This document shows positions 16,501 to 31,971 of a DNA stretch of 64,000 bases, piece by piece (position 1 is the first letter of the stretch; the number at the start of each line of letters is the position of its first letter). The notes beneath the pieces were generated by a model, which saw only the letters and a list, made by a program, of their open reading frames with translations, was not told where the DNA came from and did no database searches. Source of the stretch: Cloeon dipterum. Lineage: Eukaryota; Arthropoda; Insecta; Ephemeroptera; Baetidae. The translations under genes and the position numbers were made by a program. The stretch spans positions 34,989,681 to 35,053,680 of the forward strand of contig NC_088786.1 of the NCBI RefSeq assembly GCF_949628265.1. The letters are read 5' to 3'.

Positions 16501-17634
16501 ATACGTCCGAGCTGTTGTTGTTGAGCAATCAGCTCTTAAAATTACAAATCGCAATAAACAGTCCGTGTCTCATTGGCTTACAAATGTATGCAAAAAGTCG
16601 GAGAGAGTAAATATAAATAAATAAATAAATAAAGGCACGATCATGCCGTGTGTGCTCGCTGGCAAATAAATAAATTCGCCATAAATCTCGGTGATAATAC
16701 AGTAGCTGACACGAGACATATGCAACCTCCCGCGGAGCCGGTGCTGGAAATCAGAATAATAACAACAGAACTCGCTGGCTGGTTTGCTGGCTGGCTGGCA
16801 CAAACGGACAGACGAGTTTCTTCTTTATTTCTCCGCGCTCTCGCTGCCACATATATAGGCTGCACGCGGACGTATTATATTTTATGTAGAATCACAATCA
16901 GCACACCGCAAACCAGTCATGTCTCTTTTTCTGCTCGGCCATATCGATATATTTATCTTGCCCGGCTGCAAGCAAGCAAGGGTTCAATTCGGAAAAGAGC
17001 GGGGCTCTGTGGGCAATAAATACCGTCGCGGCTTAAGATAAATATAATGAATGGAGCCCGCGCCCCGCTGGGCAGATTATACGTGGATATGACTTATGGC
17101 TTTGTATTTGTTGACGCATAAATCTCGGCGCACAATTGGGCATTAATTCATGTTGAATGGATTTTAAATTAAATGAACAGGCAATATTGTACACAACAAG
17201 AAAGAGAGAGAGAGACGTGCCAGCCCATCTGGAAGATTTATTCATCCGATGAGATGCGGCGTATTATGTAGATCGTGCATCAATGAGGCCAACCATATAT
17301 CAGAATTAGCGCTTCAGAGATGCTATGCCTCAGAAAAGATCTGACGCAATGGATTCTCCAGCAAGAACCATTTTAAAATTACGCAGCTGTGAATTACATC
17401 ACTAAAACATACTTAAAAATTTCCAGTCGTCTAAACTGTACTTCTTACAGGTCTCATATTTCATACAAAATAAATAAATAAATCGTTTTGTGGTGACTGG
17501 TATAGTTGATGGGTTTTTTCAGCGTTCTACAAAAATAATAATGTCAGTTATAGAATTAAACAAAACAGTTGTGTGTTAGCAATGAATTGCTAATTATTAA
17601 AGATGGACACTGTTTACTGGTGAGAATGTTTTTT
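13568..17634. other. Non-coding stretch left of the transposon nest
   Basis: Unique-looking, with GT-rich and CG-rich patches near 14.1, 15.3 and 16.7 kb and many ATAAT/TTAAT words. Overlapping frames on both strands (for example 15172-15435 and 16648-17019) show no domain or splice support. No RNA gene was seen. Confidence 0.45.
16608..16633. repeat. (AAAT)n microsatellite
   Basis: About six tandem AAAT/ATAA units, read directly. Confidence 0.85.
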
Positions 17635-17638
17635 TTAA

Positions 17639-18073
17639 AGAGGAATGATACTGGAAAAGCCTGGAAAATGCTTGTTACCAATGCATAAACTCACCCCTTA
17701 GGATTCAGTTAAAGCCTTAATTGACCTAGCAAGCGCTGTAATTTTTTTAGAAAATTGGCTGGAAAGTTAGCGTGCTTTTCAAATAGTAATGGCTGTCTCC
17801 TTACTTGAAATCCGATTTAATTTCAAAACCAAGAGTTTGCCCAATAAGTGGCATACACCGTTGGACAGATCTCGACGAGAGGAATCGGAATATGCCAAGG
17901 AAATATGTTTGAGCACTGTAAATGTTGGAGAAAATTGGCAAAATTTGAATTTTTACTGTAGGAAGGTCATTTTTTTATTATTGCAAATTGTTGAACTAAT
18001 TGTTTATCGGTCAATTGTTTAAGGCATTCAACAATTTAAATAATTTTCAATTGTTGCCCAGTATCATTCCACT
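17639..18073. mobile_element. TTAA-flanked miniature element (left copy)
   Basis: A 435-bp segment bounded by TTAA at 17635-17638 and 18074-18077. Its ends are inverted copies: AGAGGAATGATACTGG at the left, and the complement of AGTGGAATGATACTGG at the right. A second 435-bp copy lies inverted at 31298-31732 with roughly 30 mismatches by eye. It contains a 77-codon open frame (17789-18022) that is also open in the other copy, but I see no transposase domain and treat it as non-coding. TTAA targets fit piggyBac or Kolobok relatives. The ends do not match those of the neighbouring large element, so it is a different family. Confidence 0.85.
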
Positions 18074-18190
18074 TTAAATATAATCCAGAGCGATATGGAA
18101 ATTAACATTTGAAAGTTTGCTCTTGTGTGCGGTATATTAAAACCTCAAATAAATACATTTATTTGTCATGTCGGTCAAATCTTGGCTTAA

Positions 18191-18796
18191 AGCAATTGGC
18201 CCGTGAGGCCTATACTCTGGTATCAAAAGAAAGCTTCTTAAATTTTAATAAGAAGAGTACTCTGAAAAAAGTCGAAAATATAATCGGAAGTGGTGCAAAG
18301 TTAGCATTTTCATGCTGGCACCTTTTTGAGTGTAGCGCGCCGTTAGCGTGGTCACGTGACAGAAATATGGCCGCCGTGCATGACAACACATGGAACTAAC
18401 CGCAACAGTGCTACTATGTACGCAAACCATCGTTCGAAGTTATAAATCGTGATAGAACGTTCATCTTTCCTATTAATTACAAGATAATTAATTTATCTCG
18501 TGTTCAACAGACGGTAAAAACAAAAGGAATGCTGGCATACGAAGCATTATGTGTTATATTATAATACGCTGGCGAATGGCGAAGCTTGGTCCTCGCCAAA
18601 TTTTCTGAAAAGGTAAATTTAGACTAGACCAAAGCAGAGAATGAATGTGTTTATTGACTTTTCTCATTTCTAAGACGTGTGTGAAAGAGACGCAGAGCAT
18701 ATTTGGCAAATTTCTGCTGCCAGTTGAGTGTGCCGCATGAAACACAGATCAAAAAAAACCGTAGAAAAGCGGATGACATGCTTCGCCACCAGTTAC
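18191..18796 (+). repeat. Left terminal inverted repeat (606 bp, non-array part)
   Basis: By eye this is base-for-base the complement of 30183-30788, with no indel. The first mismatch is at 18797. It includes a perfect 7-bp-stem hairpin at 18234-18255 (CTTCTTA, 8-base loop, TAAGAAG), a palindromic GTCACGTGAC near 18352-18361 and an AT-rich palindrome near 18473-18492. Its inner 100 bp already resemble a degenerate array unit. Confidence 0.92.
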
Positions 18797-21540
18797 AAGA
18801 AGAAGAAAGGAGTTGAGCAAGGCAAGGTTTCAGTTATCATGTACTGTTCTAATTTTTCAGGGGTGAGTGAAGGAGCAGAGAGTGTTTGTGGAATTTCTGA
18901 TGCCAGTGCCTTTTGCCACATGAAAAGAGATCAACAGAAAGTGTCGAAAAGTGGATGACATGCTTCGCCACCAGTTACTAGAAGAAGGAAGGAGTTGAGC
19001 AAGGCAGGTTTTCAGTTATCATGTACTGTTCTAATTTTTCAGGGGTGAGTGAAGGAGCAGAGAGTGTTTGTGGAATTTCTGATGCCAGTGCCTTTTGCCA
19101 CATGAAAAGAGATCAACAGAAAGTGTCGAAAAGTGGATGACATGCTTCGCCACCAGTTACTAGAAGAAGGAAGGAGTTGAGCAAGGCAGGGTTTCAGTTA
19201 TCATGTACTGTTCTAATTTTTCAGGGGTGAGTGAAGGAGCAGAGAGTGTTTGTGGAATTTCTGATGCCAGTGCCTTTTGCCACATGAAAAGAGATCAACA
19301 GAAAGTGTCGAAAAGTGGATGACATGCTTCGCCACCAGTTACTAGAAGAAGGAAGGAGTTGAGCAAGGCAGGGTTTCAGTTATCATGTACTGTTCTAATT
19401 TTTCAGGGGTGAGTGAAGGAGCAGAGAGTGTTTGTGGAATTTCTGATGCCAGTGCCTTTTGCCACATGAAAAGAGATCAACAGAAAGTGTCGAAAAGTGG
19501 ATGACATGCTTCGCCACCAGTTACTAGAAGAAAGGAGTTGAGCAAGGCAGGGTTTCAGTTATCATGTACTGTTCTAATTTTTCAGGGGTGAGTGAAGGAG
19601 CAGAGAGTGTTTGTGGAATTTCTGATGCCAGTGCCTTTTGCCACATGAAAAGAGATCAACAGAAAGTGTCGAAAAGTGGATGACATGCTTCGCCACCAGT
19701 TACTAGAAGAAGGAAGGAGTTGAGCAAGGCAGGGTTTCAGTTATCATGTACTGTTCTAATTTTTCAGGGGTGAGTGAAGGAGCAGAGAGTGTTTGTGGAA
19801 TTTCTGATGCCAGTGCCTTTTGCCACATGAAAAGAGATCAACAGAAAGTGTCGAAAAGTGGATGACATGCTTCGCCACCAGTTACTAGAAGAAGGAAGGA
19901 GTTGAGCAAGGCAGGGTTTCAGTTATCATGTACTGTTCTAATTTTTCAGGGGTGAGTGAAGGAGCAGAGAGTGTTTGTGGAATTTCTGATGCCAGTGCCT
20001 TTTGCCACATGAAAAGAGATCAACAGAAAGTGTCGAAAAGTGGATGACATGCTTCGCCTGCTGTGGCCACCAGTTACTAGAGGTAGGATGGAGTTGAGCA
20101 AAGCAGGGTTTCAGTTATCATGTACTGGTCTAATGTCTCAGGGGTGAGTGAAGGAGCAGAGAGTGTTTGTGGAATTTCTGATGCCAGTGCCTTTTGCCAC
20201 ATGAAAAGAGATCAACAGAAAGTGTCGAAAAGTGGATGACATGCTTCGCCACCAGTTACTAGAAGAAAGGAGTTGAGCAAGGCAGGGTTTCAGTTATCAT
20301 GTACTGTTCTAATTTTTCAGGGGTGAGTGAAGGAGCAGAGAGTGTTTGTGGAATTTTTGATGCCAGTGCCTTTTGCCACATGAAAAGAGATCAACAGAAA
20401 GTGTCGAAAAGTGGATGACATGCTTCGCCACCAGTTACTAGAAGAAAGGAGTTGAGCAAGGCAGGGTTTCAGTTATCATGTACTGTTCTAATTTTTCAGG
20501 GGTGAGTGAAGGAGCAGAGAGTGTTTGTGGAATTTCTGATGCCAGTGCCTTTTGCCACATGAAAAGAGATCAACAGAAAGTGTCGAAAAGTGGATGACAT
20601 GCTTCGCCACCAGTTACTAGAAGAAGGAAGGAGTTGAGCAAGGCAGGGTTTCAGTTATCATGTACTGTTCTAATTTTTCAGGGGTGAGTGAAGGAGCAGA
20701 GAGTGTTTGTGGAATTTCTGATGCCAGTGCCTTTTGCCACATGAAAAGAGATCAACAGAAAGTGTCGAAAAGTGGATGACATGCTTCGCCACCAGTTACT
20801 AGAAGAAGGAAGGAGTTGAGCAAGGCAGGGTTTCAGTTATCATGTACTGTTCTAATTTTTCAGGGGTGAGTGAAGGAGCAGAGAGTGTTTGTGGAATTTC
20901 TGATGCCAGTGCCTTTTGCCACATGAAAAGAGATCAACAGAAAGTGTCGAAAAGTGGATGACATGCTTCGCCACCAGTTACTAGAAGAAAGGAGTTGAGC
21001 AAGGCAGGGTTTCAGTTATCATGTACTGTTCTAATTTTTCAGGGGTGAGTGAAGGAGCAGAGAGTGTTTGTGGAATTTCTGATGCCAGTGCCTTTTGCCA
21101 CATGAAAAGAGATCAACAGAAAGTGTCGAAAAGTGGATGACATGCTTCGCCACCAGTTACTAGAAGAAGGAAGGAGTTGAGCAAGGCAGGGTTTCAGTTA
21201 TCATGTACTGTTCTAATTTTTCAGGGGTGAGTGAAGGAGCAGAGAGTGTTTGTGGAATTTCTGATGCCAGTGCCTTTTGCCACATGAAAAGAGATCAACA
21301 GAAAGTGTCGAAAAGTGGATGACATGCTTCGCCACCAGTTACTAGAGGTAGGATGGAGTTGAGCAAAGCAGCGTTTCAGTTATCATGTACTTGTCTAATT
21401 TTTCAGGTGTGCGTTTGAATGAGCAATGAGTGTTTGAGGAATTTCTGATACCTGTGTCTTTTGCCACATAAAAAGAGATCCAACAGAAATCGTCGAAAAG
21501 CGGAGGACATGCTTGGCCTGCGCCGGCATCTCTTGGGGTA
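18692..21540 (+). repeat. Left subterminal tandem array, about 15 units
   Basis: Head-to-tail units, mostly 182 bp, with a 179-bp variant (GAAGAAAGG for GAAGAAGGAAGG) and one longer unit near 20050 carrying CTGCTGTGG. The phrase GATGACATGCTTCGCC recurs at about 18.77, 18.95, 19.14, 19.32 and 19.50 kb, then regularly to 21.32 kb, and degenerates in the last unit near 21.5 kb. Adjacent units are nearly identical. The unit holds no open frame. Confidence 0.95.
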
Positions 21541-21673
21541 GGATTTAATTGTACCATTTGTGATTTTATGTAGTTATATTCTCTGTATAGTTATTGATTT
21601 GAAGTTTATAACAAGGACTGTCTAATGTGTTTGGGTTTTGATTAAATCAATTATATTGTACAATTTTAACAAG

Positions 21674-21679
21674 TTTATT
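21674..21679 (-). terminator. Polyadenylation signal of the transposase gene
   Basis: TTTATT on the plus strand is AATAAA on the minus strand, about 30 bp after the transposase stop codon and before the left array. Transcripts could therefore end without entering the array. Confidence 0.65.
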
Positions 21680-21706
21680 GGTATAATTGAAATATCCTCC
21701 CTTACA

Positions 21707-24333
21707 CTATAGATTCATTGCAAGCTGTCTCTCAGCAGCCAATCTTCTTAGATTTTGATTACTCTGTAGTTCCTCTAGCCCTGGTTTTGGAACACTTACA
21801 GTCGATTTTGGAATGCTGTATGGGGGTGAAAGGAGTTTTAGTTGCTCTTCCTCACTTCCTAGGAATTCATCGGGGTGTCCTGCATACTGAAGGATGTCAT
21901 GAATTAGGTCATACCTCCAGGTATGATCTTTTGTTTCATAGGTATTTTCCAGGGAAAAGGCTTTTCGTGATTTAGAATATCTTGTGTGACTCCCAGTTAC
22001 TGCCCTTCCAACGTTATTGTTGTGATCCAGGATGGCAAGTATCATTCTCAGTTGCATGTTTTCGAACATATAATGGAGTCTCTTAGGGGCATAGACCAAA
22101 ATTTCGTTGTGGAAGGACTCAAGTTGTCCAGTGTGAACGTAGAACCTGCAGTGTGTCAGGTCTCGCAAAAATGATGGTTTGTGTGTTACCTAAAATGAGA
22201 TATTATAGATAAGACAATAAAATTTTGTATTTATTACTTTTCTTAGAGCCAAAAGCGCGTCATCATCAGTGACCCAATCCGTGTTTTGCTGGCGTTCATG
22301 ATCGTAATTTGGGTGCTCACAAGACAATGCTTTCCCCTCTTTTTGCCATTCATGTTCTCCTCGGAGATGATGATTGAGTGAGTCCCACTTCTCCAGCAGC
22401 ACATCAGCGCTTCCCCCACAGGTACTACTGCAGTACCAAAGGTGCTTAATGATGGAATCAAGCCATGGCTCCAAACATTTATGGGTTTTTGCAGTTTTAC
22501 TTAAACTCTTCCTAAGAGACTTCGCCAAGTGCCAGACCTGTGATTAGTTTTGGAGGTGCTCTATGACATTAATTTTGCCGCTAAATCGGGTTTGTAAACT
22601 TACATCGAAAGAATGTTCAATCCCTTTGAACTGCTCCCTCATCAGTTTTGCTACAGACCTATTTCTGTCAGAGCAAAATGTCTTGATTTTCTTGGACCCA
22701 ATTTCTTCTACAACTCTCTTGAACGTGTGGTTGAAAGATTTGGACTCCATCTCACCATCTTCGAACCCTTTTTGAAAAAGGACAAAGTCAACAATTTTGC
22801 TGTCTTTGTTTGACATGATGGAGTAAAGGGAATATTTGGCACTAAACCCAGGAGAATCGAACCTAGCATCGCCAGAAAATACTAGATCTTCTTCTTTTTT
22901 CAACTCTTCATAAATCTCCTGTCTCATTTTGATCCATGAATGCCTCAATACTGGTGCGATAAATGTGCTGACATGGTTGTAAAATGTGGTCTTACCCATA
23001 AAGGCAAGACCAATGCTATCAGCAATCTTCTTGGAGGCCGTGAACCCGAGGCCTGTGCAAAATATTGCAGCACTCAGCAGCAAATTGACAATTGGCATTT
23101 TGTTCTTTGTCTTTGACGACGAGTTCCAAACTAACTCGTGCTTTGAATTTTTGGTACAAGTTGTTTTATATGATACACAAGCTCCAGTGCGCACTCGTTC
23201 AACTTCATTCATTGATCCACATGTTGAACAATTTGTGAAAAGTTGATCCAATTTGCAAACGTCTACAAGCACGTGTTTGATGCCATTCATACGAGCGTCG
23301 AATTCATCAGGATCATTGTCAAGAGAGGACTGTAGAGTCGATTCATTTAATGCGGATTTATCTGGCATGTATTCAGGGTCTTGATTGTCACAAATCTCAT
23401 CTTCACTACAGTCAGGTGCTGGCGATGCTGGAGGGGAAAAACTTTTGGGTGAAGGTGGAGAACAATCCACGTCATCTGGCTGTTTTCTCTTTGGAGTGCT
23501 GACTTTGGACGGACTTGGAATAAATAAAACTTCTTCTACAGATTTTGCAGGTGACACTTCCATGGGAAGAAGAATTTGTTTCCTTTTTGAAGCTCTCTTC
23601 TCTCTTCTACTCATGGTCAGCGTTGCATTTGATTTCTCTGAAGGAGATTGGTCTGTACTTGATGGAACAACTCCTGATGCGGAGGGGGATATTTCTACTA
23701 TTGTGCCTGGATTTGATTCCCTTGTTTCCGGCACTTTTTCCGAGGCACTCGACTTCACACCTCTTCTGGTGGTTGTGGCTTTCTTCCCTGTCACTACAAT
23801 CAAATTTTATTTCCATCAGCAACTGTCCGTAGATATTAATATTCATTTTTAATTCAAAAGTGTTGATAGAAATTCAATTCTATTCATTTTTAAACGTTAT
23901 ATATCAATTGTATTTGTAAAAGATGAAATGAATATATTTTCGTGATTCTTATCATTTTGTTTTTTAATTTTACTAAACAGTCTTGGAAATTAACCTTTTG
24001 TCAAATTTTGGCTTGGTACGGCAAATTCAGATAATTTGGGCCTTTTTGCCGGCTTTGGTACATCGACTACTGCATGAAAATCTGCGGGGTTGAAGTGGTC
24101 TCCACAGATGTGTGAGTCTTTTTCAATTTCAAATTTGAGCCCACATCTTTCTTCCCATTGTTGAAGCCTATTTGATAAAAAAATAATTATTCAATAAATC
24201 TTGGAAACGACAAAATTATAATAAACTTTCAAACTTACAGCTGTGGGTTAGAAAAGGGAATTTTGTAAAAATGCTTTACTCCTTTGCCTCTCCCAGAAGA
24301 AGCTGAACAGAGTACACACTTCGTTCTTCCCAT
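21707..24333 (-). CDS. Kolobok-type transposase with THAP domain
   Basis: Five exons on the minus strand: 24239-24333, 23995-24167, 22604-23793, 22238-22537 and 21707-22189. The introns of 71, 201, 66 and 48 bp are all GT...AG and all phases match, giving 746 aa. Residues 1-84 form a THAP zinc finger, with ligands C6, C9, C53 and H56, W36 and an AVPS box at 81-84; it would bind DNA at the element ends. Residues about 90-265 are a Ser/Pro-rich acidic linker with a basic RREKRASKRKQ patch near 152-162. A Cys/His cluster spans 278-308. The DDE core has GDARFDSPG (D398/D402), FCSDRN (D465) and HTGQLESFHN (E610), the expected catalytic acids, with FDVWHLAKS spanning the third intron. No frameshift or stop is seen. 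It shares a short spacer with the plus-strand gene at 24573. Family assignment is by motif recognition. Confidence 0.9.
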
Positions 24334-24572
24334 GGTTGGGCAAATTTAACTCATTTTCAGCCTTCCTAAACTATGGTTTTATTGAACATAAACAAAGATG
24401 GAGTTTGAAAACAATAAATGTTCCCCAAGTTCCCCATATGTTCTCCAATAACAAAGACTTTCGACCAATGACGTGACGAGGAATATATAAGAACAACAAA
24501 AATCTCTGCTAGAGCTTTTATAGAAACGAAACCAAAATAACCCACCAAAACAATAAATGAAAACACAAAACC
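24334..24572. promoter_or_regulatory. Bidirectional promoter region of the transposon genes
   Basis: A 239-bp spacer separates two divergent start codons. A TATATAAG box at 24484-24491 lies about 80 bp before the plus-strand ATG and suits that gene. I see no equally clear TATA box facing the transposase. Confidence 0.5.
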
Positions 24573-25197
24573 ATGGTAATTTTTAACCAAATTGCAGATA
24601 TACTTGATTGTTTTCAAAATTTATTTTTTAATACAGGCTGAGTCCATGGCAAACTCATTACATATCTTACGGCCTTTTGCACCTGATATAGAACCTCAGA
24701 TGACTGAAGAAAGAAGATTACAAAAAGAACATGAAACGAACAGAAAAAAGGCACTCTATGAACGTGGTGCTCAACATTTCAGCCTTTGGTGCCATTGTGA
24801 TAATTGCTCAAATTCCGGTCTCCCAATGGAGAACATTTGCTGTCGTGATACAAATGGCGCTTTATCAAAATTGAAAAAGAGCGAGAAAAAATGTGTCACC
24901 CAAACTCAAGGATTTAAAAGCACAGTTCTGAACAAGGACGTTCTCAAGATGTTGAAAAACACTTTACTCTTGTACACAAAAAATGTTGAGCATAGGCGCA
25001 AACTAAAAATGAACAATAATTCAAGCAGGCGCTTTGTTGCATACAAAAGCTACATTTCATGGATATCATCTGGAAAAAAATTGGGAAAAGGAAATAGACA
25101 AACAATCCCTGCGTGTGTAGTCAATATCATTAGAAAAAAATGGCCAGAAGCATCAGGTTCCTACATAGGATTTCAACCAGCAAGAGATATACAATAA
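24573..25197 (+). CDS. P2X7-like cytoplasmic (ballast) domain protein of the transposon
   Basis: Two exons: the ATG alone at 24573-24575 followed by GTAATT, then 24637-25197 after a TTTTTAATACAG acceptor, giving 187 aa. If the intron is not removed, ATG 24646 gives 183 aa. Residues about 52-180 match the zinc-binding cysteine-rich C-terminal domain of vertebrate P2X7 receptors. The visible matches are WCHCDNC (52-58), MENICCRD (65-72), C87 followed by GF, a RRFVAYKSYISW stretch (132-143), IPACVVNIIRKKWP (158-171) and GSYIGFQ (175-181). Only this domain is present: no channel, signal peptide or membrane segment. The N-terminus is basic, acidic and helix-prone. AATAAA overlaps the stop codon (25193-25198). 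The gene is transcribed away from the transposase and lies inside the same TTAA-bounded element. Its role is unknown; an accessory transposition or DNA-binding factor is an inference. Confidence 0.82.
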
Positions 25198-25335
25198 AAG
25201 TCATTTACAAGTCAAATTGAAAATATTTTATTGCTTCATAACTGGTGATACAAAAGCTTCTCTTGTTTTACACATCTGCGAAAAAAAGACCTACTAATCA
25301 CTGATACTAAGCTTATGAAATTCACGAGGCACACA

Positions 25336-28300
25336 AATATGGCATCAGAAATTACTCAAACACTCTGCTCCTTCACTCACCCCTGAAAAATTAGAACAGT
25401 ACATGATAACTGAAACCCTGCTTTGCTCAACTCCATCCTACCTCTAGTAACTGGTGGCCACAGCAGGCGAAGCATTACATCCGCTTTTCGACGTTTTCTA
25501 TTGATCTCTTTTCATGTGGCAAAAGGCACTGGCATCAGAAATTCCACAAACACTCTCTGCTCCTTCACTCACCCCTGAGACATTAGACCAGTACATGATA
25601 ACTGAAACCCTGCTTTGCTCAACTCCATCCTACCTCTAGTAACTGGTGGCCACAGCAGGCGAAGCATGTCATCCACTTTTCGACACTTTCTGTTGATCTC
25701 TTTTCATGTGGCAAAAGGCACTGGCATCAGAAATTCCACAAACACTCTCTGCTCCTTCACTCACCCCTGAGACATTAGACCAGTACATGATAACTGAAAC
25801 CCTGCTTTGCTCAACTCCATCCTACCTCTAGTAACTGGTGGCCACAGCAGGCGAAGCATGTCATCCACTTTTCGACACTTTCTGTTGATCTCTTTTCATG
25901 TGGCAAAAGGCACTGGCATCAGAAATTCCACAAACACTCTCTGCTCCTTCACTCACCCCTGAAAAATTAGAACAGTACATGATAACTGAAACCCTGCCTT
26001 GCTCAACTCCTTCCTTCTTCTAGTAACTGGTGGCGAAGCATGTCATCCACTTTTCGACACTTTCTGTTGATCTCTTTTCATGTGGCAAAAGGCACTGGCA
26101 TCAGAAATTCCACAAACACTCTCTGCTCCTTCACTCACCCCTGAAAAATTAGAACAGTACATGATAACTGAAACCCTGCCTTGCTCAACTCCTTCCTTCT
26201 TCTAGTAACTGGTGGCGAAGCATGTCATCCACTTTTCGACACTTTCTGTTGATCTCTTTTCATGTGGCAAAAGGCACTGGCATCAGAAATTCCACAAACA
26301 CTCTCTGCTCCTTCACTCACCCCTGAAAAATTAGAACAGTACATGATAACTGAAACCCTGCCTTGCTCAACTCCTTCCTTCTTCTAGTAACTGGTGGCGA
26401 AGCATGTCATCCACTTTTCGACACTTTCTGTTGATCTCTTTTCATGTGGCAAAAGGCACTGGCATCAGAAATTCCACAAACACTCTCTGCTCCTTCACTC
26501 ACCCCTGAAAAATTAGAACAGTACATGATAACTGAAACCCTGCCTTGCTCAACTCCTTTCTTCTAGTAACTGGTGGCGAAGCATGTCATCCACTTTTCGA
26601 CACTTTCTGTTGATCTCTTTTCATGTGGCAAAAGGCACTGGCATCAGAAATTCCACAAACACTCTCTGCTCCTTCACTCACCTCTGAAAAATTAGAACAG
26701 TACATGATAACTGAAACCCTGCCTTGCTCAACTCCTTTCTTCTAGTAACTGGTGGCGAAGCATGTCATCCACTTTTCGACACTTTCTGTTGATCTCTTTT
26801 CATGTGGCAAAAGGCACTGGCATCAGAAATTCCACAAACACTCTCTGCTCCTTCACTCACCCCTGAAAAATTAGAACAGTACATGATAACTGAAACCCTG
26901 CCTTGCTCAACTCCTTTCTTCTAGTAACTGGTGGCGAAGCATGTCATCCACTTTTCGACACTTTCTGTTGATCTCTTTTCATGTGGCAAAAGGCACTGGC
27001 ATCAGAAATTCCACAAACACTCTCTGCTCCTTCACTCACCTCTGAAAAATTAGAACAGTACATGATAACTGAAACCCTGCTTTGCTCAACTCCATCCTAC
27101 CTCTAGTAACTGGTGGCCACAGCAGGCGAAGCATGTCATCCACTTTTCGACACTTTCTGTTGATCTCTTTTCATGTGGCAAAAGGCACTGGCATCAGAAA
27201 TTCCACAAACACTCTCTGCTCCTTCACTCACCCCTGAAAAATTAGAACAGTACATGATAACTGAAACCCTGCCTTGCTCAACTCCTTCCTTCTTCTAGTA
27301 ACTGGTGGCGAAGCATGTCATCCACTTTTCGACACTTTCTGTTGATCTCTTTTCATGTGGCAAAAGGCACTGGCATCAGAAATTCCACAAACACTCTCTG
27401 CTCCTTCACTCACCCCTGAAAAATTAGAACAGTACATGATAACTGAAACCCTGCCTTGCTCAACTCCTTCCTTCTTCTAGTAACTGGTGGCGAAGCATGT
27501 CATCCACTTTTCGACACTTTCTGTTGATCTCTTTTCATGTGGCAAAAGGCACTGGCATCAGAAATTCCACAAACACTCTCTGCTCCTTCACTCACCCCTG
27601 AAAAATTAGAACAGTACATGATAACTGAAACCCTGCCTTGCTCAACTCCTTCCTTCTTCTAGTAACTGGTGGCGAAGCATGTCATCCACTTTTCGACACT
27701 TTCTGTTGATCTCTTTTCATGTGGCAAAAGGCACTGGCATCAGAAATTCCACAAACACTCTCTGCTCCTTCACTCACCCCTGAAAAATTAGAACAGTACA
27801 TGATAACTGAAACCCTGCCTTGCTCAACTCCTTCCTTCTTCTAGTAACTGGTGGCGAAGCATGTCATCCACTTTTCGACACTTTCTGTTGATCTCTTTTC
27901 ATGTGGCAAAAGGCACTGGCATCAGAAATTCCACAAACACTCTCTGCTCCTTCACTCACCCCTGAAAAATTAGAACAGTACATGATAACTGAAACCCTGC
28001 CTTGCTCAACTCCTTTCTTCTAGTAACTGGTGGCGAAGCATGTCATCCACTTTTCGACACTTTCTGTTGATCTCTTTTCATGTGGCAAAAGGCACTGGCA
28101 TCAGAAATTCCACAAACACTCTCTGCTCCTTCACTCACCTCTGAAAAATTAGAACAGTACATGATAACTGAAACCCTGCCTTGCTCAACTCCTTTCTTCT
28201 AGTAACTGGTGGCGAAGCATGTCATCCACTTTTCGACACTTTCTGTTGATCTCTTTTCATGTGGCAAAAGGCACTGGCATCAGAAATTCCACAAACACTC

Positions 28301-30200
28301 TCTGCTCCTTCACTCACCCCTGAAAAATTAGAACAGTACATGATAACTGAAACCCTGCCTTGCTCAACTCCTTTCTTCTAGTAACTGGTGGCGAAGCATG
28401 TCATCCACTTTTCGACACTTTCTGTTGATCTCTTTTCATGTGGCAAAAGGCACTGGCATCAGAAATTCCACAAACACTCTCTGCTCCTTCACTCACCTCT
28501 GAAAAATTAGAACAGTACATGATAACTGAAACCCTGCCTTGCTCAACTCCTTTCTTCTTCTAGTAACTGGTGGCGAAGCATGTCATCCACTTTTCGACAC
28601 TTTCTGTTGATCTCTTTTCATGTGGCAAAAGGCACTGGCATCAGAAATTCCACAAACACTCTCTGCTCCTTCACTCACCCCTGAAAAATTAGAACAGTAC
28701 ATGATAACTGAAACCCTGCCTTGCTCAACTCCTTTCTTCTAGTAACTGGTGGCGAAGCATGTCATCCACTTTTCGACACTTTCTGTTGATCTCTTTTCAT
28801 GTGGCAAAAGGCACTGGCATCAAAAATTCCACAAACACTCTCTGCTCCTTCACTCACCCCTGAAAAATTAGAACAGTACATGATAACTGAAACCCTGCCT
28901 TGCTCAACTCCTTTCTTCTAGTAACTGGTGGCGAAGCATGTCATCCACTTTTCGACACTTTCTGTTGATCTCTTTTCATGTGGCAAAAGGCACTGGCATC
29001 AGAAATTCCACAAACACTCTCTGCTCCTTCACTCACCTCTGAAAAATTAGAACAGTACATGATAACTGAAACCCTGCCTTGCTCAACTCCTTTCTTCTTC
29101 TAGTAACTGGTGGCGAAGCATGTCATCCACTTTTCGACACTTTCTGTTGATCTCTTTTCATGTGGCAAAAGGCACTGGCATCAGAAATTCCACAAACACT
29201 CTCTGCTCCTTCACTCACCCCTGAAAAATTAGAACAGTACATGATAACTGAAACCCTGCCTTGCTCAACTCCTTTCTTCTAGTAACTGGTGGCGAAGCAT
29301 GTCATCCACTTTTCGACACTTTCTGTTGATCTCTTTTCATGTGGCAAAAGGCACTGGCATCAGAAATTCCACAAACACTCTCTGCTCCTTCACTCACCCC
29401 TGAAAAATTAGAACAGTACATGATAACTGAAACCCTGCCTTGCTCAACTCCTTTCTTCTAGTAACTGGTGGCGAAGCATGTCATCCACTTTTCGACACTT
29501 TCTGTTGATCTCTTTTCATGTGGCAAAAGGCACTGGCATCAAAAATTCCACAAACACTCTCTGCTCCTTCACTCACCCCTGAAAAATTAGAACAGTACAT
29601 GATAACTGAAACCCTGCCTTGCTCAACTCCTTTCTTCTAGTAACTGGTGGCGAAGCATGTCATCCACTTTTCGACACTTTCTGTTGATCTCTTTTCATGT
29701 GGCAAAAGGCACTGGCATCAGAAATTCCACAAACACTCTCTGCTCCTTCACTCACCTCTGAAAAATTAGAACAGTACATGATAACTGAAACCCTGCCTTG
29801 CTCAACTCCTTTCTTCTTCTAGTAACTGGTGGCGAAGCATGTCATCCACTTTTCGACACTTTCTGTTGATCTCTTTTCATGTGGCAAAAGGCACTGGCAT
29901 CAGAAATTCCACAAACACTCTCTGCTCCTTCACTCACCCCTGAAAAATTAGAACAGTACATGATAACTGAAACCCTGCCTTGCTCAACTCCTTTCTTCTA
30001 GTAACTGGTGGCGAAGCATGTCATCCACTTTTCGACACTTTCTGTTGATCTCTTTTCATGTGGCAAAAGGCACTGGCATCAGAAATTCCACAAACACTCT
30101 CTGCTCCTTCACTCACCCCTGAAAAATTAGAACAGTACATGATAACTGAAACCCTGCCTTGCTCAACTCCTTCCTTCTTCTAGTAACTGGTGGCGAAGCA
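25336..30200 (-). repeat. Right subterminal tandem array, about 27 units
   Basis: Head-to-tail units of 179-194 bp, the complement of the left-array unit, with GAAGCATGTCATCC recurring every 179-191 bp from 25.48 to 30.20 kb. The innermost units carry a variant with CCACAGCAGGC and CCATCCTACC, also found innermost on the left. Outer units differ by small alternating variants (CCCCTG/CCTCTG and CTTTCTTCTAG/CTTTCTTCTTCTAG) in a higher-order pattern. Confidence 0.95.
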
Positions 30201-30788
30201 TGTCATCCGCTTTTCTACGGTTTTTTTTGATCTGTGTTTCATGCGGCACACTCAACTGGCAGCAGAAATTTGCCAAATATGCTCTGCGTCTCTTTCACAC
30301 ACGTCTTAGAAATGAGAAAAGTCAATAAACACATTCATTCTCTGCTTTGGTCTAGTCTAAATTTACCTTTTCAGAAAATTTGGCGAGGACCAAGCTTCGC
30401 CATTCGCCAGCGTATTATAATATAACACATAATGCTTCGTATGCCAGCATTCCTTTTGTTTTTACCGTCTGTTGAACACGAGATAAATTAATTATCTTGT
30501 AATTAATAGGAAAGATGAACGTTCTATCACGATTTATAACTTCGAACGATGGTTTGCGTACATAGTAGCACTGTTGCGGTTAGTTCCATGTGTTGTCATG
30601 CACGGCGGCCATATTTCTGTCACGTGACCACGCTAACGGCGCGCTACACTCAAAAAGGTGCCAGCATGAAAATGCTAACTTTGCACCACTTCCGATTATA
30701 TTTTCGACTTTTTTCAGAGTACTCTTCTTATTAAAATTTAAGAAGCTTTCTTTTGATACCAGAGTATAGGCCTCACGGGCCAATTGCT
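30183..30788 (-). repeat. Right terminal inverted repeat (606 bp, non-array part)
   Basis: Exact inverted copy of 18191-18796 by eye, ending in GGCCTCACGGGCCAATTGCT immediately before TTAA at 30789-30792. Confidence 0.92.
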
Positions 30789-30792
30789 TTAA

Positions 30793-31293: not shown

Positions 31294-31297
31294 TTAA

Positions 31298-31732
31298 GGT
31301 GGAATGGTACTGGGCAACAATTGAAAACTATTTAAATTGTTGGATGCCTTAAACAATTGACCGATAAACAATTTGTTCAACAATTTGAAATAATAAAAAA
31401 ATGACCTTCGTACAGTAAAAATTCAAATTTTGCCAATTTTCTCCAAAATTTACAGTGCTTGAACATATTTTTTTGGCATATTCCGATTCCTCTCGTCGAG
31501 ATCTGTTCAACGATGTATGCCACTTGTTGGGGAAACTCTTGGTTTTGAAATTAAATCGGATTTCAAGTAAGGAGACAGCCATTACCACTTGAAAAGCACG
31601 GTAACTTTCCAGCCAATTTTCTCAAAAAAATACAGCGCTCCTTAGGTCAATTTAGGCTTTAACTGAATCCTAAGGGATGAGTTTATGCATTGGCAACAAG
31701 CAATTTCCAGGCTTTTCCAGTATCATTCCTCT
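31298..31732. mobile_element. TTAA-flanked miniature element (right copy, inverted)
   Basis: A 435-bp inverted copy of 17639-18073, bounded by TTAA at 31294-31297 and 31733-31736. Its plus-strand ends are GGTGGAATGGTACTGG and CCAGTATCATTCCTCT. It differs from the left copy at roughly 7% of positions by eye, far more than the transposon ends differ from each other. That fits two separate, older insertions. Confidence 0.85.
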
Positions 31733-31971
31733 TTAACAACCGCAATACAACAAATTTCCTCAGGCCAAATTATACAAAATTAAAAAATATCCCATTTATT
31801 AAATTGAATTCCAGTCTCAGAATTCAAAAGGAATGTTTAATCTTTGTCAGAGAAGAGATAGGAGATGATACTACGCCAAATTCAGTGTCCTATCAATGGA
31901 TGCGCGAGAAATGCACGGCGTCAATGTAACTCCGTGTCTGCGCATCAGCGGTCGTTCCTCGAGCTTACCAC

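Follow-up and report, generated by a model that had tools for sequence, protein, structure and literature searches.

An intact Kol0-type Kolobok transposon with a P2X7 ballast-domain gene and tandem arrays in both arms in Cloeon dipterum

Among the closest described systems for the element analyzed here are the transposons of the Kol0 lineage of Kolobok, which were reported to encode a transposase and, as a second protein, KolX (Kojima and Bao, 2022; PMC9587614). KolX is described there as clearly similar to the ballast region of P2X7, including seven conserved cysteines, and P2X7 itself is proposed to have originated when KolX became fused to a P2X4-like gene (PMC9587614). Since that report links KolX to the P2X7 tail, the central claim made for the present locus has already been published; with the idea in print since 2022, the element is a good new example and not a discovery. 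The Kol0 hosts named in the same text, following the word “including”, are vertebrates, annelids, cnidarians, and sponges (PMC9587614). Arthropods are absent from this open-ended list, so that finding both genes intact in an arthropod extends it modestly at most. The ballast domain had also been traced across animals (Rump et al., 2020; PMC7016195), in a work whose main text contains the string “transpos” 0 times. Among the arthropod ballast-domain proteins listed therein is one from a tick, with a domain printed as “TAHP”.

The window, i.e., the whole stretch of 64,000 nucleotides that was analyzed, contains a DNA transposon of 12,598 bp (18191-30788), in the following called the F1 element, which is bounded on its left (18187-18190) and right (30789-30792) side by copies of TTAA, the target-site duplication. 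Its terminal inverted repeats start with 5′-AGCAATTGGCCCGTGAGG... at position 18191, and the inverse of AGCAATTGGCCCGTGAGG finishes at position 30788. The outer parts of these repeats span 18191-18708 and 30271-30788, with the outer 520 bp being identical between both arms. The termini, AG...CT, match the 5′-RR...YY-3′ pattern of Kolobok elements, and the TTAA duplication typical of this superfamily was found around two of two F1 copies and three of three complete copies of a second family, F2, which is described below. Hallmarks of KolobokP were looked for as well: instead of long terminal direct repeats the F1 element has inverted arms, and no nuclease family, the His-Me nuclease included, exceeded the Pfam cut-off in either the transposase or KolX.

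Outside the element, a 446-bp repeat is present as an inverted pair (17632-18077 and 31294-31739; 93.5% alike) that brackets it. The left member recurs abundantly at scattered sites (2,350 initial candidates, 40 of them scored, and at least 42 matches), and the pair is probably an unrelated MITE.

In the gene model, the transposase is encoded by five exons on the minus strand, which have GT/AG borders and join into a single uninterrupted frame of 746 amino acids. The THAP domain starts in exon 1 (24239-24333) and is completed in exon 2 (23995-24167), exon 3 (22604-23793) contributes D398 and D465, exon 4 (22238-22537) the Cys/His region following D486-x-x-H489, and exon 5 (21707-22189) E610, its stop codon ending at 21707. 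Pfam searches identified a THAP domain (E 3.4e-8) and the Mutator-like DDE transposase family PF20700 (E 4.3e-10). The residues D398, D465, D486VWH489, the Cys/His cluster from C522 onward, and E610 were assigned by motif only; a C/D-x-x-H motif between the second D and the E, with Cys/His residues thereafter, as is characteristic of Kolobok, is present according to this motif assignment. Under the rules given in PMC9587614, D398, D465, and E610 would be read as the catalytic triad and D486-x-x-H489 as the signature.

The second gene, KolX, is oriented divergently to the transposase gene. Its gene model comprises two exons on the plus strand, the first contributing only the ATG (24573-24575) and the second the P2X7 ballast-domain protein (24637-25197), which together encode 187 amino acids with a pI of 9.85. 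The 239 bp between the two divergent start codons (24334-24572) presumably constitute a shared promoter of transposase and KolX. Residues 20-181 of KolX match the Pfam family PF20478 (P2RX7_C) with an E value of 1.9e-24 and 87.1 bits (cut-off 23.5), the only family exceeding its cut-off and thus with no enzyme family among the results. The second exon furthermore matches four distinct P2X7 sequences from the PDB (E 1.6e-9 to 9.2e-8). All seven cysteines of the P2X7 zinc site are present in KolX with their order kept (WCxCxxC, CC, C, PAC), namely C53, C55, C58, C69, C70, C87, and C161, a pattern that was lost in every one of 20,000 shuffled versions of KolX. Five of the seven match column by column in the phmmer alignment of KolX with P2X7, the CC pair being out of register because KolX has a longer loop behind it. 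Rat P2X7 contacts the guanosine nucleotide through five residues; KolX retains two of them (R546 and R578) and has F, V, and E in place of H547, R574, and K583, respectively. A similar loss of the nucleotide contacts beyond deuterostomes is described by Rump et al. (PMC7016195), according to whom these rat contacts do not define the ballast domain outside mammals. AlphaFold2, run on the single KolX sequence without relatives, returned a poor model with a mean pLDDT of 38.6.

These results bear out what the sequence-only reading had proposed for this locus. The ends, the Pfam domains, and the open frames confirm a TTAA-bounded element with two intact divergent genes, one of which was rightly taken for a Kolobok-type THAP-DDE transposase in view of its two Pfam matches and the TTAA ends. 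The suggested match of the other product to the ballast domain of P2X7 holds in the profile search of the 187-amino-acid protein against the P2X7 C-terminal domain as well as in the comparison with PDB P2X7 chains. Neither of the outcomes named there as contrary evidence came about, since the profile matched and all five complete gene-bearing copies found have the gene. The further idea of that reading, a mobile-element accessory protein from which P2X7 may have obtained its tail, corresponds to what was published in 2022 (PMC9587614).

Relatives of KolX were also searched for elsewhere. A peptide pattern was fitted by 114 stretches in viral contigs and by 80 stretches in bacterial and archaeal genomes, none of which were confirmed by tblastn. 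The search for P2X receptor genes gave 0 matches in the host genome, in the same way as this family was detected in none of 14 control genomes.

The genome (190 Mb in 10 contigs) has 94 Chitin_bind_4 matches, and as such numbers are typical of arthropods, it was judged to come from one. Genome-wide searches, whose counts are lower bounds, revealed a second F1 copy at C1:38366527-38384211, which is 17,685 bp long and has TTAA sites of its own. The cores of the two F1 copies differ at one of 3,755 bases, a change that results in the transposase substitution S343F. In addition, three complete copies of the divergent family F2 were found (C2:28049897-28059259, C3:11481824-11494851, and C3:16502273-16511637), all of which are flanked by TTAA at either end. 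Pieces of THAP, transposase, and KolX could all be traced in the C2 copy, and all three copies have open frames for KolX and for the main transposase exon. Compared with the C2 copy, the two C3 copies show 4 and 1 differences, respectively, in 4,159 core bases; the three pairwise values are 1, 3, and 4. These low numbers of core differences suggest that members of both families moved recently. The two families share 56-58% identity in KolX and 50-57% in three core blocks of the transposase. Both genes occur in the same divergent order in five of the five complete gene-bearing elements found, across both families.

Besides these, six fragment loci were detected, of which three contain the transposase only and three KolX only; they were examined over 8-14 kb with family-1 protein queries at E 0.01. 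One of them, at C2:36975747, retains an open transposase piece of 345 amino acids, and any KolX belonging to it could fall beyond the sequence examined. Another TTAA-flanked locus (L065, C2:30786021-30793521) represents a 7,493-bp derivative of F2 which shows neither gene and is partly folded back on itself; its open frames resemble, as judged by eye, an LTR retrotransposon polyprotein. The F2 elements (L016-L021) end in 5′-AC...GT-3′, contrary to the 5′-RR...YY-3′ pattern of Kolobok. TTAA followed by the tip sequence stands alone at seven of the 19 matched places in the genome. These seven lone tips are possibly solo ends or decayed copies, and some of them are to be attributed to chance, because a reversed control pattern also gave three matches.

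With respect to sequence constraint, F1 and F2 differ by 0.35 nonsynonymous changes per site in KolX and by 0.38 in the three core blocks of the transposase (496 codons). For both genes, synonymous sites are saturated between the families, and for this reason no dN/dS ratio is given. From the nonsynonymous values it follows that KolX is constrained about as tightly as the transposase, which, on the basis of these sequence comparisons, is as expected for a protein that the element needs.

The arms of the F1 element consist largely of tandem arrays, which make up over half of its length and are not mentioned in the sequence-only reading. In the left array (18709-21518) a unit of 179-192 bp is repeated about 15.4 times, and the right array (25340-30270) has about 27 copies of a unit of the same type in inverted orientation, a figure that corresponds to 13.5 copies of a double unit; the 179-bp row covers 24.4. 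Three unit lengths occur in F1 (179, 182, and 192 bp). Both arms carry tandem arrays in all five complete elements, with units of 174-192 bp and about 8-57 copies per arm. The left/right copy numbers are 15.4/27 for the F1 element of the window and 11.4/57.4, 9.4/11.7, 15.4/26.7, and 13.4/7.7 for the other four. As the cores are near-identical, array length evolves much more quickly than gene sequence, unless the arrays were misjudged in the assembly. The units of F1 and F2 are similar in length and show no detectable similarity in sequence: alignment of the two units gave a score of 21, which was equalled by 66 of 200 shuffles, and the comparison of the F1 and F2 tips a score of 23, equalled by 106 of 200.

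A derivation of the units from the element tip was considered for each family and rejected. For F1 the corresponding score of 28 was reached by only one of 200 shuffles, yet the aligned stretch adjoins the array and is most simply explained as a worn edge unit; for F2 the score of 27 was equalled by 9 of 200 shuffles. On their inward-reading strand, units of both families (e.g., 18852-19033) also match the consensus of a splice donor and that of a splice acceptor. Since such signals are found in 199 and 177 of 2,000 shuffles as well, they do not constitute evidence for splicing within the arrays. It is plausible, by analogy with Galileo, that the array repeats might serve as additional sites for the THAP transposase. 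In the main text of the report on Kol0 (PMC9587614), the term “tandem repeat” occurs 0 times.

Taken together, the F1 element is best explained as an intact, presumably autonomous transposon of the Kol0 lineage within the Kolobok superfamily, in which KolX would act as a helper in transposition, a reading to which we assign a probability of roughly 0.8. Points against it are the AC ends of F2 and the six fragment loci, each of which shows just one of the two genes within the 8-14 kb covered. Its identity as a Kolobok Kol0 transposon is near certain, the feature that distinguishes this lineage, a second gene KolX with a ballast domain, having been found by means of both PF20478 and the P2X7 sequences of the PDB. 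THAP domains bind transposon end sequences, and DDE domains cut and join DNA. In the F1 element, the THAP domain would thus bind to sites near the element ends, and perhaps to sites in the arrays too, and the DDE domain would cut and rejoin at TTAA. KolX, being small (187 amino acids), basic, and equipped with seven zinc cysteines, might join the transposase on the DNA and contribute to the assembly of the transposition complex or to its targeting. A precedent for such a division of labor are the Harbinger transposons, which use a Myb-like helper protein alongside the transposase. That KolX acts directly on the DNA or the transposase is a guess by analogy, to which we would give somewhat less than even odds.

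Among the alternatives, the one surviving best is that KolX acts on the host outside the cutting reaction, for example by dampening the silencing of the element. The lack of any enzyme family in the Pfam results for KolX would fit such a role, and the conservation of KolX across F1 and F2 is compatible with host-side and transposition roles alike; we regard this explanation as unlikely. Considerably less probable is the assumption that KolX provides a guanine-nucleotide-dependent step in trans, as opposed to the built-in GTP-binding insertion with which the P-element transposase positions the DNA end. It is motivated by the binding of a guanosine nucleotide by the ballast domain of P2X7 (PMC7016195) and by the finding that the P-element transposase, which likewise combines a THAP domain with an RNase H-type domain, requires GTP for pairing and joining (PMC7776569). 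However, the GTP-binding insertion of the P-element transposase is termed the only one known in the review of that element (PMC7776569), and with just two of the five rat P2X7 nucleotide contacts kept, the loss of the other three weakens any reading of KolX as a nucleotide-dependent subunit. The same holds for the most far-reaching version, in which the ballast protein of Kol0 elements would be a separate part of the transposition complex, dependent on a nucleotide or on zinc and working on arrays of binding sites in the arms, and the P2X7 tail a transpososome component put to new use with its nucleotide pocket retained; we consider it very improbable. Finally, the idea that the F1 element picked up a host gene in a single isolated event, in line with which one might cite the single-gene content of all six fragment loci (KolX alone in three, transposase alone in three), can be given practically no weight, as five of five complete, TTAA-flanked gene-bearing elements from two families, which are about 50-58% alike in protein, hold both genes and the same is reported for Kol0 elements in other animals (PMC9587614).

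Returning to the reading of the F1 element as a Kol0 transposon with KolX as a transposition helper, the element and its near-identical copy look like living transposons of this lineage, with both genes open, both ends present, and few differences between them. Elements of the two families would permit direct testing of the role of KolX and thereby perhaps of what the P2X7 tail originally did. Apart from the genes, the unusual, satellite-like arms of both families provide a clear example of array length varying within young transposons.

In comparison with known systems, the elements described here resemble Kolobok-1_XT and its Kol0 relatives, as these are described in PMC9587614, in their TTAA sites, in a DDE transposase with D-x-x-H, and in a KolX with a ballast domain. 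They differ from Kol0 as portrayed there (PMC9587614) in that their arms are filled with arrays of 174-192-bp units and in the AC ends of F2. With the ballast domain of P2X7 and with nanor (PMC7016195), KolX shares the seven zinc cysteines, whose order is unchanged, and the tail IPAC...IRKKWP...GF. Unlike P2X7, KolX has no channel part, three of the five rat nucleotide contacts are gone, and the loop after the CC pair is longer. Galileo belongs to the P superfamily, in contrast to the Kolobok-type F1 element. The two are nevertheless alike in having a THAP transposase, and the repeats of Galileo hold extra transposase binding sites (cited in PMC4079207). The foldback element Tetris, as presented in PMC4079207, offers a precedent for such arms, its long inverted repeats containing tandem repeats of about 220 bp in varying number. 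Complete Tetris copies are described as being without conserved ORFs (PMC4079207), whereas the F1 element has two intact Kolobok-type genes. Finally, the T2-MITE Xmix with its Xstir repeats from Xenopus (PMC6004289) is likewise a TTAA element of Kolobok type in which an internal segment has been amplified. Xmix is, according to the description given there (PMC6004289), short and non-autonomous, whereas the arrays of F1 and F2 sit in both arms of gene-bearing copies.
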